This document shows, one piece after another, positions 43,338 to 51,025 of a stretch of 64,000 nucleotides of DNA (the stretch's first letter is position 1; each line of letters starts with the position of its first letter). The notes beneath the pieces were generated by a model. The model was not told the origin of the DNA and did no database searches. It saw only the letters and a list, made by a program, of their open reading frames with translations. The stretch spans positions 1 through 64,000 of the forward strand of contig CAISCU010000010.1 of NCBI GenBank assembly GCA_903883965.1, written 5' to 3'. This DNA is from an uncultured Bacteroidota bacterium (lineage in GTDB: Bacteria; Bacteroidota; Bacteroidia; UKL13-3). The position numbers were made by a program, and so were the translations under genes.

Positions 43338-44534
43338 ATGGCAGGTAGCGAATTTTTTGGAGCAGAAGAGAAAAAAGAAATCAACGATGTTTTAGAAACA
43401 GGCATTTTGTTCAGATACAACCACGATGCCCAACGAAACAATATTTGGAAAGCTAAAGAATTTGAAAAGGAAGTTGCGAGTTTAGTTGGAGCTAAATATG
43501 CACATGCTGTTTCAAGTGGTTCAACTGCCGTTTCATGTGCTTTGGCTGCTGCAGGTATTGGAGCAGGAGATGAAGTAATCGTTCCACCTTTTACATATAT
43601 TGCTTCTGTTGAAGCGGTTATTTTTGCAGGGGCATTACCTGTTTTTGCTGAAATAGATGAAACACTTTGTTTGAGTGCTGCAGGAATTAAAAAGGCAATT
43701 ACTCCTAAAACCAAAGCTGTACTATTGGTGCACATGTGTGGTCAAATGGCCAATATGGATGAGATTATGCCTGTTATTCTAGAAAATAATTTGGTTTTGG
43801 TTGAAGATGCTGGCCAAGCAATGGCAGCAAGTTACAAAGGCGTTTCTACTGGTTTGTGGGGAACTACAGGCTGTTACAGTTTTGATTTTTTTAAAATTGC
43901 TACTGCAGGAGAAGGTGGAGTTATGGTAACCAATAGCGAAAAGGCATACCATTTAGCCGACAATTTTGCAGACCATGGTCATGACCACAAAGGCAATAAC
44001 AGAGGCATGGAAAACCATCCTGTTTTGGGATTCAACTACCGCATATCTGAATTACATGCCGCTATTGGTTTGGCTCAAACCAGAAGAGTTCCAGAAATAA
44101 AGAAACTCAACAACAGTCACAAAAATTTCATGATGGCTGAATTGGGTAAAATTAAAGGAGTTTCGTTTGCCTCAATTCCAGATAAGGATGGAGATTCTGC
44201 TACTTTCTTAAATATATTATTGCCTGATACTATTTTGGCTCAGAAAACTGTCAATGCATTCAATCAAAATGGCGTAACAGGTTTCAATTATTGGTATACC
44301 AATATGTACCATTTTATTAACCAATGGGACCATATCAAACAAGGTAGGGTTGCAGCAAAAACAAATGTACAATTATTGGGTGCACCTCAAGATTATGCAA
44401 ATCTTGAATTGCCTCAAACACAAGCAACCATTGGTCGTTTAATATCTTTTAGTATCAAAGCAACTTGGACTGAAGCAGAATTGAAAGCATTGGTAACCTC
44501 AATTGGTAATTCTATTCAATCCGTATTGAAATAA
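43338..44534 (+). CDS. kdnA: 8-amino-3,8-dideoxy-Kdo aminotransferase (KdnA)
   Basis: This DegT/DnrJ/EryC1-family PLP aminotransferase is predicted to transfer an amino group from glutamate to the C8 aldehyde of oxidised Kdo, giving 8-amino-Kdo (Kdo8N), as shown for KdnA of Shewanella. The 398-residue protein has the PLP lysine K186 in SFDFFKIATAGEGG and the cofactor aspartate in VEDAGQ (D157). The assignment rests mainly on its pairing with the KdnB-like gene 11 bases downstream and kdsA beyond. Alone, it could be another sugar aminotransferase. Confidence 0.85.
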   Translation: MAGSEFFGAEEKKEINDVLETGILFRYNHDAQRNNIWKAKEFEKEVASLVGAKYAHAVSSGSTAVSCALAAAGIGAGDEVIVPPFTYIASVEAVIFAGALPVFAEIDETLCLSAAGIKKAITPKTKAVLLVHMCGQMANMDEIMPVILENNLVLVEDAGQAMAASYKGVSTGLWGTTGCYSFDFFKIATAGEGGVMVTNSEKAYHLADNFADHGHDHKGNNRGMENHPVLGFNYRISELHAAIGLAQTRRVPEIKKLNNSHKNFMMAELGKIKGVSFASIPDKDGDSATFLNILLPDTILAQKTVNAFNQNGVTGFNYWYTNMYHFINQWDHIKQGRVAAKTNVQLLGAPQDYANLELPQTQATIGRLISFSIKATWTEAELKALVTSIGNSIQSVLK

Positions 44535-44545
44535 GTCATTATTGC

Positions 44546-45628
44546 ATGAGTCACAAGAATTTCAAAAGCATCGAAAAAACTGTATTTGGAAGAGGTAGCT
44601 TTTCTCAGTTACATGAAATTTTAGCTGAAAAACGTCACTTGAACAATGGAAACATGGTATTCATTGTTGATGCATTTTTCAAAGACAAACCTTTGGCTCA
44701 GCAATTGCCAGTTCAAGCTACAGATTTGGTTTATTTCATTGATGTAGATCCACATGAACCTACCACTGAACAAATAGACCAACTAAGAGACGAAATATTG
44801 TCCACAAGCGGATTACCAGCAGGTTTAATAGGAATTGGTGGAGGTAGTATCATGGATATAGCTAAGGCCACGGCTTTGATGTTAACCAACGAAGGGTCAT
44901 CGGTTCAATACCAAGGTTTGAATTTAATAAAAAAGCCGGGTGTTTACCATGTGGGTATTCCAACTATTTCTGGAACTGGAGCGGAGTGTAGCATGACAGC
45001 TGTTTTAACCGGGCCAGAAAAAAAATTAGGGCTCAAATGTGAATGGACCATTTTTGACCAAGTGATTTTAGATTCAGAATTAACGGCATCTGTTCCGGTT
45101 GACAAATGGTTTTATACGGGTATGGATACCTTTATTCATTGCATAGAAAGCCGTGATGGTATTTTAAACAATGCATACAGCATGGCTTACGGAGAACAAT
45201 CTCTTAAATTGTGCAGAGAAATTTATTTGGGAGAACAGGCTGGTCAATCACCAGAAAATGACGACAAATTAATGGTTGCTTCATTAATGGGTGGATTGAG
45301 TTTAACATATAGTGAAGTGGGTGTATGCCATGCCTTGAGTTATGGATTGAGTAAGATTTTTGGTGAAAAACATTGTTATGCCAACTGTTTGGCATTTCAA
45401 CACCTGTCCGATTTTTATCCCGATGGCGTAGAAGAATTTAAGCGCATGTTAGCCAAACACAACATTATATTGCCAACAGGTCTGAGCAAAAATTGGTCTG
45501 ACGAAGAAATTACAGCTATGGCACATGTAGCGTATAACCTCCATCACATGTGGAACCATGCCATTGGAACCAATTGGAAAGAAAAAATTGATATTAGATT
45601 TATTGAATCTTTATTTAGAAGAATGTAA
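44546..45628 (+). CDS. kdnB: 3-deoxy-manno-octulosonate 8-oxidase (KdnB)
   Basis: This group III iron-containing alcohol dehydrogenase family protein is predicted to oxidise the C8 hydroxyl of Kdo to an aldehyde for KdnA. The 360-residue protein has the nucleotide-binding GIGGGSIMD (GGGS 98-101) and ISGTGAECS. Metal ligands fit D194, H198, H262 and H276 (GMDTFIHC, VCHALS, EKHCYAN). It starts 11 bases after kdnA, and kdsA starts 12 bases after it, so the three genes form one transcript. Confidence 0.85.
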   Translation: MSHKNFKSIEKTVFGRGSFSQLHEILAEKRHLNNGNMVFIVDAFFKDKPLAQQLPVQATDLVYFIDVDPHEPTTEQIDQLRDEILSTSGLPAGLIGIGGGSIMDIAKATALMLTNEGSSVQYQGLNLIKKPGVYHVGIPTISGTGAECSMTAVLTGPEKKLGLKCEWTIFDQVILDSELTASVPVDKWFYTGMDTFIHCIESRDGILNNAYSMAYGEQSLKLCREIYLGEQAGQSPENDDKLMVASLMGGLSLTYSEVGVCHALSYGLSKIFGEKHCYANCLAFQHLSDFYPDGVEEFKRMLAKHNIILPTGLSKNWSDEEITAMAHVAYNLHHMWNHAIGTNWKEKIDIRFIESLFRRM

Positions 45629-45640
45629 TCAAACAAACAA

Positions 45641-46471
45641 ATGACAAAAATTGTAAAAGTTGGGAATATAGAATGTGGTTCAGACAAGTTGTTCTTAATC
45701 TCTGGGCCATGTGTAATTGAGGATGAATCTATCATGATGAAAACAGCAGAAATGCTCAAAGAAATTTCTCATAGATTAGATATTCAAGTTATTTATAAAT
45801 CATCTTTCCAAAAAGACAACCGCAGTAGTTTAAAATATTACGATGGTCCAGGTTTAGACAAAGGAGTAAAGTTACTGGCTAAAATAAGAGAACAATTTGG
45901 ATTCCCTATTTTAACAGATGTGCATTACCCTGAACAAGCAACAGCTGCTGGTGAAGTGGTTGATGTGATCCAAATTCCAGCTTATTTGTGTATGCAAAGT
46001 ACTTTAATGGTTGCTGCTGCAAAAACGGGTAAAGTAGTAAACATCAAACATGGTCAGTTTTTAGCACCTGAAAACATGAAACATCCGGTGGCTAAGTGTA
46101 TAGAATCAGGTAACGACCAAGTTATATTAACTGAAAGAGGTTTTACCTTTGGTTACAACGATTTAATTGTTGATCCGAGGAGTTTTTACCACCTTAGAAA
46201 CATAGGCTATCCAGTGGTTTTTGATGTAACTCATTGTGTTAGAAAATATGGTACACCTAGTGCAGACCCTAATGGAGGTGCCAGAGAATTTTTACCAGTT
46301 TTGAGTAGAGCAGGCGTTGCTGCAGGTATAGATGGTATTTTCATTGAAACCCATCCTGAACCTTCTAAAGCATTGTGTGATGCTGCTTCTCAGTTATGTA
46401 TTTATGACTTAGAAGAGTTCATGAAACCACTCATTGAAATACACCAAACAGAGGTTCGTTTTAGGAAATAA
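45641..46471 (+). CDS. kdsA: 3-deoxy-8-phosphooctulonate synthase (Kdo8P synthase)
   Basis: KdsA condenses arabinose 5-phosphate with phosphoenolpyruvate to form Kdo 8-phosphate. The 276-residue protein has KSSFQKDNRSSLKYYDGPG, GFPILTDVH, NIKHGQF and DVTHCVRKYG. The segment LISGPCVIED contains Cys24 where E. coli KdsA has Asn26, so this is the metal-dependent class (Aquifex type). A weak 5-base-pair hairpin with a T-run follows the stop (about 46479-46500). The next gene starts 78 bases later. Confidence 0.95.
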   Translation: MTKIVKVGNIECGSDKLFLISGPCVIEDESIMMKTAEMLKEISHRLDIQVIYKSSFQKDNRSSLKYYDGPGLDKGVKLLAKIREQFGFPILTDVHYPEQATAAGEVVDVIQIPAYLCMQSTLMVAAAKTGKVVNIKHGQFLAPENMKHPVAKCIESGNDQVILTERGFTFGYNDLIVDPRSFYHLRNIGYPVVFDVTHCVRKYGTPSADPNGGAREFLPVLSRAGVAAGIDGIFIETHPEPSKALCDAASQLCIYDLEEFMKPLIEIHQTEVRFRK

Positions 46472-46549: not shown

Positions 46550-47563
46550 ATGGAATTATACTTAGACTCAGCCAATCTGAAAGAGATTGAAGAAGGTTTT
46601 AAATTGGGCTTTTTAAATGGCCTAACAACTACCCCTACATTTATGCAAAGGGAAGGCATTACCGATATAGATGGAATGATTGTAAAATTATCCAAAATGG
46701 TGCCTGTTCTTCAAATTGAGGCTTTGGGTGATACAGCAGAAGATGTATTAAAAGAAGCTGAAAGACAATTGGCTTTAGGCTTAGATCCAACTAAAACCGT
46801 ATTTAAAATTCCGGTATCTTTAGAAGGTGTAAGGGCATGTAAATTGTTACGTAACAAAGGCTATTTGGTAAACATTCATTTGGTGTATACATTACAACAA
46901 GCTTACATGGCCATGCATGCTGGTGCTACTTATGTTTGCCCATTGGTAGGCAGGTTACAAGACCAAGGACATGATGCTTTAGACTTAGTAGACCAAATTG
47001 TTTCAGCTGTAGACCATTATGGTTACGATACCAAAGTGATGTTTTCATCTGTAAGAACCATGGAGCATATCAGAAATGCTTTAAACTTAGGCGTTCATAC
47101 CATTACTGTTCCTTTAAAAATAATGAAACAGTTAACTGAAAACCATTTCACAACTGTGGGTACGGATCAATTTATTAGAGATACCCGTTTAATGACAGTT
47201 CGTGTGAAGGAAGTATTGAATGGCGTAAACCCTACAGTTGATGTGAATACCAATTTGTCTGATGCCATTATTAAAATGACAGAACATGGCTTTGGTGCCA
47301 TTACCATTACCCATGCAGATGGTTCTTTAAAAGGCGTATTTACGGACGGCGATTTACGCAGAAAAATACAAAACGATGGCCGCGATGTATTGGCAAAGAA
47401 AATGGGTGATTTTGAATATGGTACAGCCATTTCAATTGACTCAAATGCTTTGTTAAATGATGCAGCTGTGGTGTTCAAATCAACCAAAGTAGATACCATT
47501 TTGGTAACAGAAAACGGAAAGCCAGTAGGCATGTTAGACATTCAAGACTTAGAATCTTTATAG
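46550..47563 (+). CDS. Transaldolase/FSA-like barrel fused to a KdsD-type CBS pair
   Basis: The 337-residue protein joins two modules. Residues 1-215 form a class I aldolase barrel of the transaldolase/fructose-6-phosphate-aldolase family: MELYLDSANL with D6, Schiff-base lysine K86 in FKIPVSLEG, and PLVGRLQDQG. Two positions differ from E. coli FSA: T28 replaces Asn in TTNP, and E57 replaces Gln59, as in true transaldolases. Residues 218-337 are two CBS motifs including GVFTDGDLRR, closely like the CBS pair of KdsD. The SIS isomerase domain of KdsD is absent. Its place after kdsA suggests a role in arabinose-5-phosphate supply (inference). Confidence 0.8.
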   Translation: MELYLDSANLKEIEEGFKLGFLNGLTTTPTFMQREGITDIDGMIVKLSKMVPVLQIEALGDTAEDVLKEAERQLALGLDPTKTVFKIPVSLEGVRACKLLRNKGYLVNIHLVYTLQQAYMAMHAGATYVCPLVGRLQDQGHDALDLVDQIVSAVDHYGYDTKVMFSSVRTMEHIRNALNLGVHTITVPLKIMKQLTENHFTTVGTDQFIRDTRLMTVRVKEVLNGVNPTVDVNTNLSDAIIKMTEHGFGAITITHADGSLKGVFTDGDLRRKIQNDGRDVLAKKMGDFEYGTAISIDSNALLNDAAVVFKSTKVDTILVTENGKPVGMLDIQDLESL

Positions 47564-47577
47564 TAAAAAACACATAT

Positions 47578-47604
47578 AAAAGGAGGTTTAGGCCTCCTTT
47601 TTTT
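47578..47604 (+). terminator. Terminator after the transaldolase-CBS gene
   Basis: AAAGGAGG (47579-47586) pairs with CCTCCTTT (47593-47600) across a TTTAGG loop and runs into TTTT. It separates the kdnA-to-transaldolase unit from the kdsC-like gene 20 bases downstream, at least partly. Confidence 0.75.
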
Positions 47605-47623
47605 ATGATTTAATTCTGCTCAT

Positions 47624-48328
47624 ATGCAAACAATAGTTAGTGAATTTGAAGCCATTGGTGGTGTATTTGTTCAAAGACCAAGAGCCATTGTAGAAAAACT
47701 GAACCACATAAAAGCCTTTGTGTTTGACTGGGATGGTGTTTTTAACAATGCTACTAAAAACAGCAATAACAGCAGTAATTTCAATGAGGCAGATAGCATG
47801 GGTACCAATTTATTGAGGTATGCACACTATTACAAAAGCAATGAAATGCCCTTGGCTGCCATTATATCGGGCGAAAAAAATGAACAAGCCTTTTATTTTG
47901 CTCAAAGAGAGCATTTCCAATCGGCTTATTATAAAATAGCACATAAAATAGATGCTTTGCAGCATTTTTGCCAGGCCCATGAATTGGCCATGCATGAGGT
48001 TTGTTACATGTTTGATGATGTACTAGATTTGAGTATTGCATCGGCATGTGGCTTGAGAATTTTAATCAACAGAAAAGCCAATCCTTTGTTTAGAAATTAT
48101 GTGGTACAGAACAACCTTGCCGATTATGTAACTGGGCATGAAAGCGGAAATTTTGCAGTTAGAGAAGCCTGCGAAATGCTCATTGGCTTAGGCGGAAACT
48201 ATGATGCCCTAATGAAAGAACGCACAGCCTATCATGGCAATTACGCCAGTTATATTGCCCTAAGACAAAGCTTACCAACTCAATTTTTTACGGTAAGTGA
48301 GCAAGGCATAGCCCAAACTAATCCTTAA
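47624..48328 (+). CDS. Divergent KdsC-like HAD phosphatase
   Basis: This HAD-superfamily protein is predicted to remove the phosphate from Kdo 8-phosphate. The 234-residue product has the nucleophile motif FDWDGVF (D35, D37) and ISGEKN. CYMFDDVLD stands in place of the usual IGDD, and ADYVTGHESGNFAVREACE matches the KdsC C-terminal block. Where KdsC usually has RDGxG it reads FNEADSMG. These changes make the assignment less than certain. N- and C-terminal extensions bring it about 50 residues above the usual length. It meets the ABC-F stop tail-to-tail with no gap. Confidence 0.75.
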   Translation: MQTIVSEFEAIGGVFVQRPRAIVEKLNHIKAFVFDWDGVFNNATKNSNNSSNFNEADSMGTNLLRYAHYYKSNEMPLAAIISGEKNEQAFYFAQREHFQSAYYKIAHKIDALQHFCQAHELAMHEVCYMFDDVLDLSIASACGLRILINRKANPLFRNYVVQNNLADYVTGHESGNFAVREACEMLIGLGGNYDALMKERTAYHGNYASYIALRQSLPTQFFTVSEQGIAQTNP

Positions 48329-50287: not shown

Positions 50288-51025
50288 ATGATACTAGGAA
50301 TTATACCAGCCAGATATGCCAGCACACGTTTTCCAGGAAAACCTTTGGCTATGATAGAAGGTAAAAGCATGATCAGAAGGGTGTATGAGCAAGCGTCTCA
50401 AGCTAAAACTATTGACAAATTGGTTGTTGCCACCGACGACGAACGCATAGCCGAACATGTTTTGTCATTTGGGGGTGAAGTGGTAATGACCAACGCTGAA
50501 CATCCTAGTGGAACTGACAGGTGTTATGAAGCCTTTAAAAAAGTTGCTGGAGATTTCAATTATGTCATCAATATTCAGGGAGATGAACCTTTTTTAGATC
50601 CCAAGCAAATAGATGAATTGGGCGCTGTTTGCAAAGGACAAACAGAATTGGCCACCCAAATGATTCGGGTAGACAACTCCGCTTTTTTGTTTGACCAAGG
50701 TGAAGTAAAAATAGTATTGAACCACGAAAACGAAGCACTATATTTTAGCCGCATGGTTATTCCATTTGTAAAAGGGAAACCAGAAGCTGAATGGCATTTA
50801 CACCACAATTATTTTAGGCATGTAGGCATGTATGCATACCGCAGAGATGTATTGCAAGCCATTACTAAATTGCCAGTTTCTGCCTTAGAAAAAGCAGAAA
50901 GCCTTGAACAATTGCGTTGGTTAGAAGCCGGCTTTAAAATTAAATGTGTAGAAACCCAATTCGATAGCCATTGCATAGATACTCCTGAAGACATAGAAAG
51001 GGTATTGCAATTGATGAGAGGATAG
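50288..51025 (+). CDS. kdsB: CMP-Kdo synthetase
   Basis: KdsB couples Kdo, or here probably 8-amino-Kdo, to CMP to make the activated donor for lipid A core assembly. The 245-residue protein has the N-terminal nucleotide motif GIIPARYASTRFPGKPL, then TDDERIAEHV, INIQGDEPFL and HVGMYAYRRD. In Shewanella the matching KdsB is specialised for the 8-amino sugar; sequence alone cannot show that here. It is divergent from the ABC-F gene across 66 bases and stops directly against fmt. Confidence 0.93.
   Translation: MILGIIPARYASTRFPGKPLAMIEGKSMIRRVYEQASQAKTIDKLVVATDDERIAEHVLSFGGEVVMTNAEHPSGTDRCYEAFKKVAGDFNYVINIQGDEPFLDPKQIDELGAVCKGQTELATQMIRVDNSAFLFDQGEVKIVLNHENEALYFSRMVIPFVKGKPEAEWHLHHNYFRHVGMYAYRRDVLQAITKLPVSALEKAESLEQLRWLEAGFKIKCVETQFDSHCIDTPEDIERVLQLMRG

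Follow-up and report, generated by a model that had tools for sequence, protein, structure and literature searches.

Here we describe a protein from an uncultured Bacteroidota bacterium (Bacteroidia; UKL13-3) in which a transaldolase-type barrel is fused to a pair of CBS domains, and which probably substitutes functionally for the arabinose 5-phosphate isomerase KdsD. In this reading the fusion provides the KdsA encoded next to it with its acceptor, most likely D-arabinose 5-phosphate (A5P), and ligand binding by the CBS pair determines how active it is. The fusion gene lies among genes for the synthesis of 3-deoxy-D-manno-octulosonate (Kdo) in a stretch of 64,000 nucleotides, hereafter the window (assembly GCA_903883965.1, contig CAISCU010000010.1, positions 1 to 64,000). 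Kdo synthesis is near-universal in Gram-negative envelope building and is an antibacterial target. If the reading is true, the fusion represents a second natural route into Kdo, present in about one quarter of the KdsA-bearing Bacteroidia sampled, and closes a gap in the pathway that would escape annotation because the protein would be named fructose-6-phosphate aldolase (FSA) or CBS-domain protein. No description of an aldolase-CBS fusion was found in the literature searched, in which most subscription journals were not covered.

Across the Bacteroidia, the fusion and KdsD are strictly alternative. An order sample of 64 genomes and a wider class sample of 247 Bacteroidia genomes were compared, and no genome in either carries both. 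In the class sample 175 genomes have KdsA; 40 of them encode the fusion, 134 encode KdsD, and a single one (G506, 80% complete) encodes neither, such that 40 of the 41 genomes having KdsA without KdsD encode the fusion (Fisher p 8e-39 for the exclusion among KdsA-bearing genomes, kinship ignored). The order sample gave a full-length fusion in 34/64 genomes and KdsD over the cut-off in 21/64; five genomes of one genus (g143) have neither, and no KdsA over the cut-off either. Two genomes with the main type of fusion had no KdsA match, one being 67% and the other 96% complete. Both states are found within each of five families (f1, f3, f9, f55, and f83), suggesting that the replacement arose several times. 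A preliminary description of the window, made from its sequence alone, had proposed that the fusion replaces KdsD. The ordinary kdsD that would have contradicted the proposal was looked for and not found, and this mapping, together with the linkage to Kdo pathway genes, leaves replacement of KdsD well supported by comparative data. The KdsC profile TIGR01670 was also considered as a second discriminator but was uninformative, as its matches are widespread, genomes that lack KdsA included, and some fusion genomes have it as well. Some Bacteroidia (L191, L192, L180, and others) encode a short KdsD consisting of the SIS domain alone, several directly beside KdsA, which may be another way of losing the CBS pair.

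The source genome, scored as 100% complete with 0.23% contamination, follows the same pattern. Profile searches of both the window and the whole genome gave no SIS isomerase of the KdsD/GutQ family, extending to the genome what the preliminary description had noted for the window. SIS domains occur in four of its proteins, namely GlmS (two domains), GmhA (which exceeds equivalog cut-offs), Pgi/Pmi, and MurQ, and the KdsD/GutQ profile matches CBS pairs only. One 21 kb contig of the assembly (C9, L165) carries an ordinary KdsA, ParA/ParB, and an aconitase-like gene. The ParB of this contig shares only 39% identity with that on C31 and 38-39% with the ParBs of kin, and the contig is therefore probably contamination; its KdsA was no longer counted as direct evidence for a fusion working with a KdsA of the normal type.

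The two halves of the fusion are clear from profiles and fold. Residues 3-201 match Pfam TAL_FSA (PF00923) at 115.9 bits, against a gathering score of 27, and in an AlphaFold2 model built with 45 relatives (mean predicted local distance difference test score 90.6) the best Protein Data Bank matches of the barrel are transaldolases of Thermoplasma, Thermotoga, and Bacillus (Foldseek template modelling score to target ~0.9). K86 is invariant and aligns with the FSA catalytic lysine, and the protein belongs to the TAL_FSA superfamily, as had been claimed. However, it scores 159.4 bits against the FSA equivalog TIGR00875, under the cut-off of 245.95, and is not a member. For the C-terminal part, Pfam CBS was matched in two stretches and the best profile was TIGR00393 (KpsF/GutQ), over residues 215-329, where 58.9 bits against a cut-off of 203.7 again place the fusion outside the family. 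TIGR00393 matches only from profile position 153, its CBS part, and the SIS isomerase domain of KdsD is thus indeed missing. Among solved structures, the CBS pair is best matched by the CBS pairs of arabinose 5-phosphate isomerases, with 4o9k ahead of 3k2v and 3fna. The pair had been called very close to that of E. coli KdsD; the FTDGDLRR motif is real, but the wording is too strong for 27% identity over 124 residues. In a tree of CBS pairs the fusion pairs form their own group, which is not nested within Bacteroidota KdsD, and the tree gives no sign of a derivation from Bacteroidota KdsD.

The active site was compared between 107 fusion proteins and 26 ordinary Bacteroidota transaldolases. 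D6, T28, E57, K86, H110, C130, L132, R135, S167, and R169 are invariant in the fusions; all 26 transaldolases have N28, T110, S130, and F132, while the K, D, E, R, S, and R columns are common to both groups. From established transaldolase knowledge, we take the R135 and R169 columns to be the phosphate-binding arginines. The alignment thus indicates an enzyme that keeps the Schiff-base lysine and the phosphate-binding arginines on a rebuilt donor pocket and proton-transfer set (N28T, T110H, S130C, and F132L). In FSA, Lys85 is the covalent catalyst and Tyr131 the proton shuttle, the catalytic water is held by Gln59/Thr109/Tyr131, and Asp6/Asn28 contact the donor (PMC13259622). The fusions have L132, E57, and H110 in place of Tyr131, Gln59, and Thr109 in 107/107 cases, and T/H/C/L in place of the transaldolase donor-site set Asn28, Thr110, Ser130, and Phe132, also in 107/107. 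Judged by these residues, the active site is of neither the transaldolase nor the FSA type. The fold and the Schiff-base lysine position of the proposed FSA-like aldolase therefore stand, although a plain FSA it is not.

These residues bear on two explanations in which the fusion would have no part in making A5P. The first, that it is an extra regulated transaldolase of the pentose phosphate pathway, or an FSA, merely located near Kdo genes, would account for the barrel family and for phosphate-binding residues of the transaldolase kind. However, the source genome has an ordinary transaldolase gene on contig C47, indicating that the fusion is not the housekeeping enzyme, and the strict exclusion with KdsD, the lost transaldolase donor residues, and scores far under the FSA/Tal equivalog cut-offs make this explanation highly improbable; plain transaldolase identity was rejected in view of that ordinary enzyme and the differing donor residues. 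The second holds that another protein makes A5P, with the fusion serving KdsA solely as sensor or regulator. It can draw on the CBS pair and on five relatives in family f53 that have diverged to 38-42% identity, in which K86 is replaced by R or S and which are apparently non-catalytic. Yet the Schiff-base lysine is lost in those five relatives, all found in genomes without KdsA, and retained in the KdsA-linked fusions; none of the 107 fusions departs from K86, D6, E57, or the phosphate-binding arginines, and no other SIS isomerase in the source genome fits. A sensor-only role is accordingly given very little weight.

If the fusion is an enzyme, its chemistry is constrained by what the pocket has kept and lost. 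The positions that hold dihydroxyacetone are changed, but not the lysine, D6, or the arginines that bind phosphate, for which reason we suggest that K86 would form its Schiff base with an aldehyde carbon, either C1 of an aldose phosphate or glycolaldehyde. Since A5P is fructose 6-phosphate minus C1, the active-site pattern fits an aldehyde at the Schiff-base carbon. There is precedent for such products on this fold, as FsaA forms A5P by joining glycolaldehyde to glyceraldehyde 3-phosphate (PMC9947464; PMC6298115), in agreement with the preliminary description, and TalB F178Y yields both A5P and ribose 5-phosphate (PMC9947464). Together these activities mean that the transaldolase fold can reach A5P via glycolaldehyde and, in principle, also link ribose 5-phosphate to A5P.

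Three routes may be considered. The aldol addition of free glycolaldehyde to glyceraldehyde 3-phosphate by an FSA-like aldolase has the FsaA precedent, and the donor-pocket changes N28T and S130C suit a smaller donor. It would, however, depend on the continual provision of a reactive aldehyde that is scarce and that no conserved neighbour makes, and the Tyr131/Gln59/Thr109 set of FSA is replaced by Leu/Glu/His, leaving this route possible but somewhat doubtful. Alternatively, ribose 5-phosphate could be converted to A5P on the enzyme, by retro-aldol/aldol chemistry or C2 proton transfer, without free glycolaldehyde. We tentatively and slightly favour this route because ribose 5-phosphate is a common metabolite, because no conserved glycolaldehyde gene is nearby, and because Glu57/His110 would be available for proton transfer, though it falls short of an even chance. 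Action as an enediol isomerase of ribulose 5-phosphate seems unlikely. The non-isomerase chemistry put forward in the preliminary description is likewise a hypothesis. By whichever route, A5P is the likely product of the fusion.

The partner KdsA is also of a distinct type, a point absent from the preliminary description. Fusion-linked KdsA proteins form a separate clade in the tree (support 100/99), of which no description was found in the literature searched, and the KdsA copy on the fusion contig of genome G457 also falls within it. In E. coli numbering, this clade has D61, Y117, M120, R205, C249, and A251, where KdsA in KdsD genomes has A61, F117, R120, Q205, S249, and mostly G251; D61, Y117, M120, and R205 are present in every fusion-linked KdsA examined, corresponding to D59, Y115, M118, and R201 in the window. 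The distinct clades point to two alternative sets, the fusion with its own KdsA and KdsD with the ordinary KdsA. R120 is a residue which we take to contact the phosphate of A5P, and so either R205 stands in for it or the acceptor of the fusion-linked KdsA may differ; a literature search on the KdsA residues in contact with A5P yielded no usable assignments. The latter would fit a branch that bypasses A5P altogether, with another aldose phosphate condensed with phosphoenolpyruvate by the altered KdsA, and the phosphatase of the haloacid dehalogenase (HAD) family beside the fusion is divergent too. Against such a branch, KdsB and the Kdo transferase WaaA belong to ordinary families, and the key residues K60, N62, R63, S64, D95, H202, E239, and D250 are kept in the fusion-linked KdsA. 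The KdsC-type catalytic residues of the HAD protein (D35, D37, K108, D131, D132, and D135) are likewise kept in at least 98% of the 57 copies found in the loci examined, from which a phosphorylated product is expected. Loss of R120 with gain of R205 may also be a swap that preserves phosphate binding. On balance, a branch that bypasses A5P is improbable.

As for control, the CBS ligand may be CMP-Kdo or its 8-amino-Kdo (Kdo8N) counterpart, CMP-Kdo8N, which would amount to end-product feedback. The first-ranked structure match, 4o9k, was reportedly solved with CMP-Kdo. Control of the fusion through its CBS pair, as proposed in the preliminary description, is a hypothesis, albeit a probable one.

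Several points weigh against A5P synthesis under CBS control. The changed pocket residues of the partner KdsA could point to a different acceptor, and it is mainly for this altered pocket that we hold the A5P claim to good but not high confidence. The proton-shuttle position, Tyr in FSA and Phe in transaldolases, is Leu in the fusions, and catalysis must therefore differ from both types. No conserved glycolaldehyde-supplying neighbour was found among the loci examined, and the CBS ligand is suggested by resemblance only. Taken in full, a Schiff-base A5P synthase on the transaldolase fold, under feedback control by its CBS pair and coupled to a KdsA that co-evolved with it, would be a new natural activity, and we consider this fuller description moderately likely.

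Comparison with known systems sets the fusion apart from each. It resembles FSA and the short transaldolases (FsaA, TalC/MipB type; TIGR00875) in its barrel, in K86 (FSA K85), D6, S167, and R135, and has Glu at the transaldolase position, but it adds the CBS pair and carries N28T, T110H, S130C, and F/Y132L in all members. With KdsD/GutQ/KpsF (TIGR00393) it shares a CBS pair with (I/V)FTDGDLRR and the same genomic role beside KdsA, but without the SIS domain and with 59 bits against 204. TalB F178Y and FsaA, as synthetic A5P aldolases, have the same fold and obtain A5P from glycolaldehyde and glyceraldehyde 3-phosphate, but through engineered or promiscuous use, with no CBS pair and another active-site set (PMC9947464; PMC6298115). 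A natural high-affinity A5P aldolase has been named as a missing tool for synthetic pathways (PMC9947464), and the fusion is a candidate natural, possibly high-affinity, enzyme of this kind.

The setting of the gene in the window is as it had been described, with KdnA-like, KdnB-like, KdsA, KdsC-like HAD, and KdsB genes confirmed by profiles (Table 1). In 96 loci, 80 from a named-genome scan and 16 chosen stretches (a few of them KdsD-type controls), the HAD gene recurs in 57, KdsA in 54, KdnB in 44, KdnA in 42, and KdsB in 34, and a match to the Kdo transferase family (PF04413, WaaA) lies upstream in 15. The view of the locus as a Kdo8N cluster holds for the window, where KdnA/KdnB-like genes stand beside the fusion, but not as a rule: KdnB is present in 28/42 fusion genomes, not found in the other 14, and present in three genomes with KdsD. 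The Kdo8N branch is thus common with the fusion but not required, and a strict link was rejected. An aminotransferase and iron alcohol dehydrogenase pair beside Kdo genes is also the arrangement of KdnA/KdnB in Shewanella; the 8-amino-Kdo pathway of that genus is not known to use an aldolase-CBS protein, and the 14 fusion genomes in which KdnB was not found differ from it in this respect too.

Table 1. Coordinates of the fusion gene, its predicted sites, neighbouring genes in the window, and divergent relatives in other loci.
Feature	Position	Strand	Remarks
Fusion protein, 337 aa	46550..47563	+	Transaldolase/FSA-type barrel (residues 1-~212) and CBS pair (~215-335)
K86 codon, predicted Schiff-base lysine	46805..46807	+	Aligns with FSA catalytic lysine (FSA K85)
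H110 codon, in place of FSA/transaldolase catalytic-water threonine	46877..46879	+	Alignment; Thr109 role from PMC13259622
CBS pair, including GVFTDGDLRR (residues 262-271)	47192..47554	+	Pfam, TIGR00393, structure matches, alignment
KdnA-like DegT/DnrJ aminotransferase (8-amino-Kdo branch)	43338..44534	+	Function by resemblance
KdnB-like iron alcohol dehydrogenase (8-amino-Kdo branch)	44546..45628	+	Function by resemblance
KdsA, fusion-linked clade	45641..46471	+	Over two equivalog cut-offs; D59 Y115 M118 R201
KdsC-like HAD phosphatase	47624..48328	+	Catalytic motifs complete; weak profile match
KdsB, CMP-Kdo synthetase	50288..51025	+	Profile match
Divergent relatives, family f53	L160:9888-10889, L161:9927-10937, L162:8977-9981, L163:9632-10651, L164:9874-10917		Beside M61 peptidase gene

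A terminator-like hairpin followed by a T run was seen by eye at 47578-47606, in the gap that separates the fusion from the KdsC-like HAD gene, and the two genes may therefore belong to separate transcripts. In 15 loci (L039-L054; for example L053:9220-9930) a small exported protein, for which Pfam gave no match, is encoded ~0.9 kb upstream of the fusion. A contig labelled Azovibrio restrictus (Pseudomonadota; L103), probably misbinned, also carries the complete Bacteroidota-type cluster, with a fusion of 78-79% identity.
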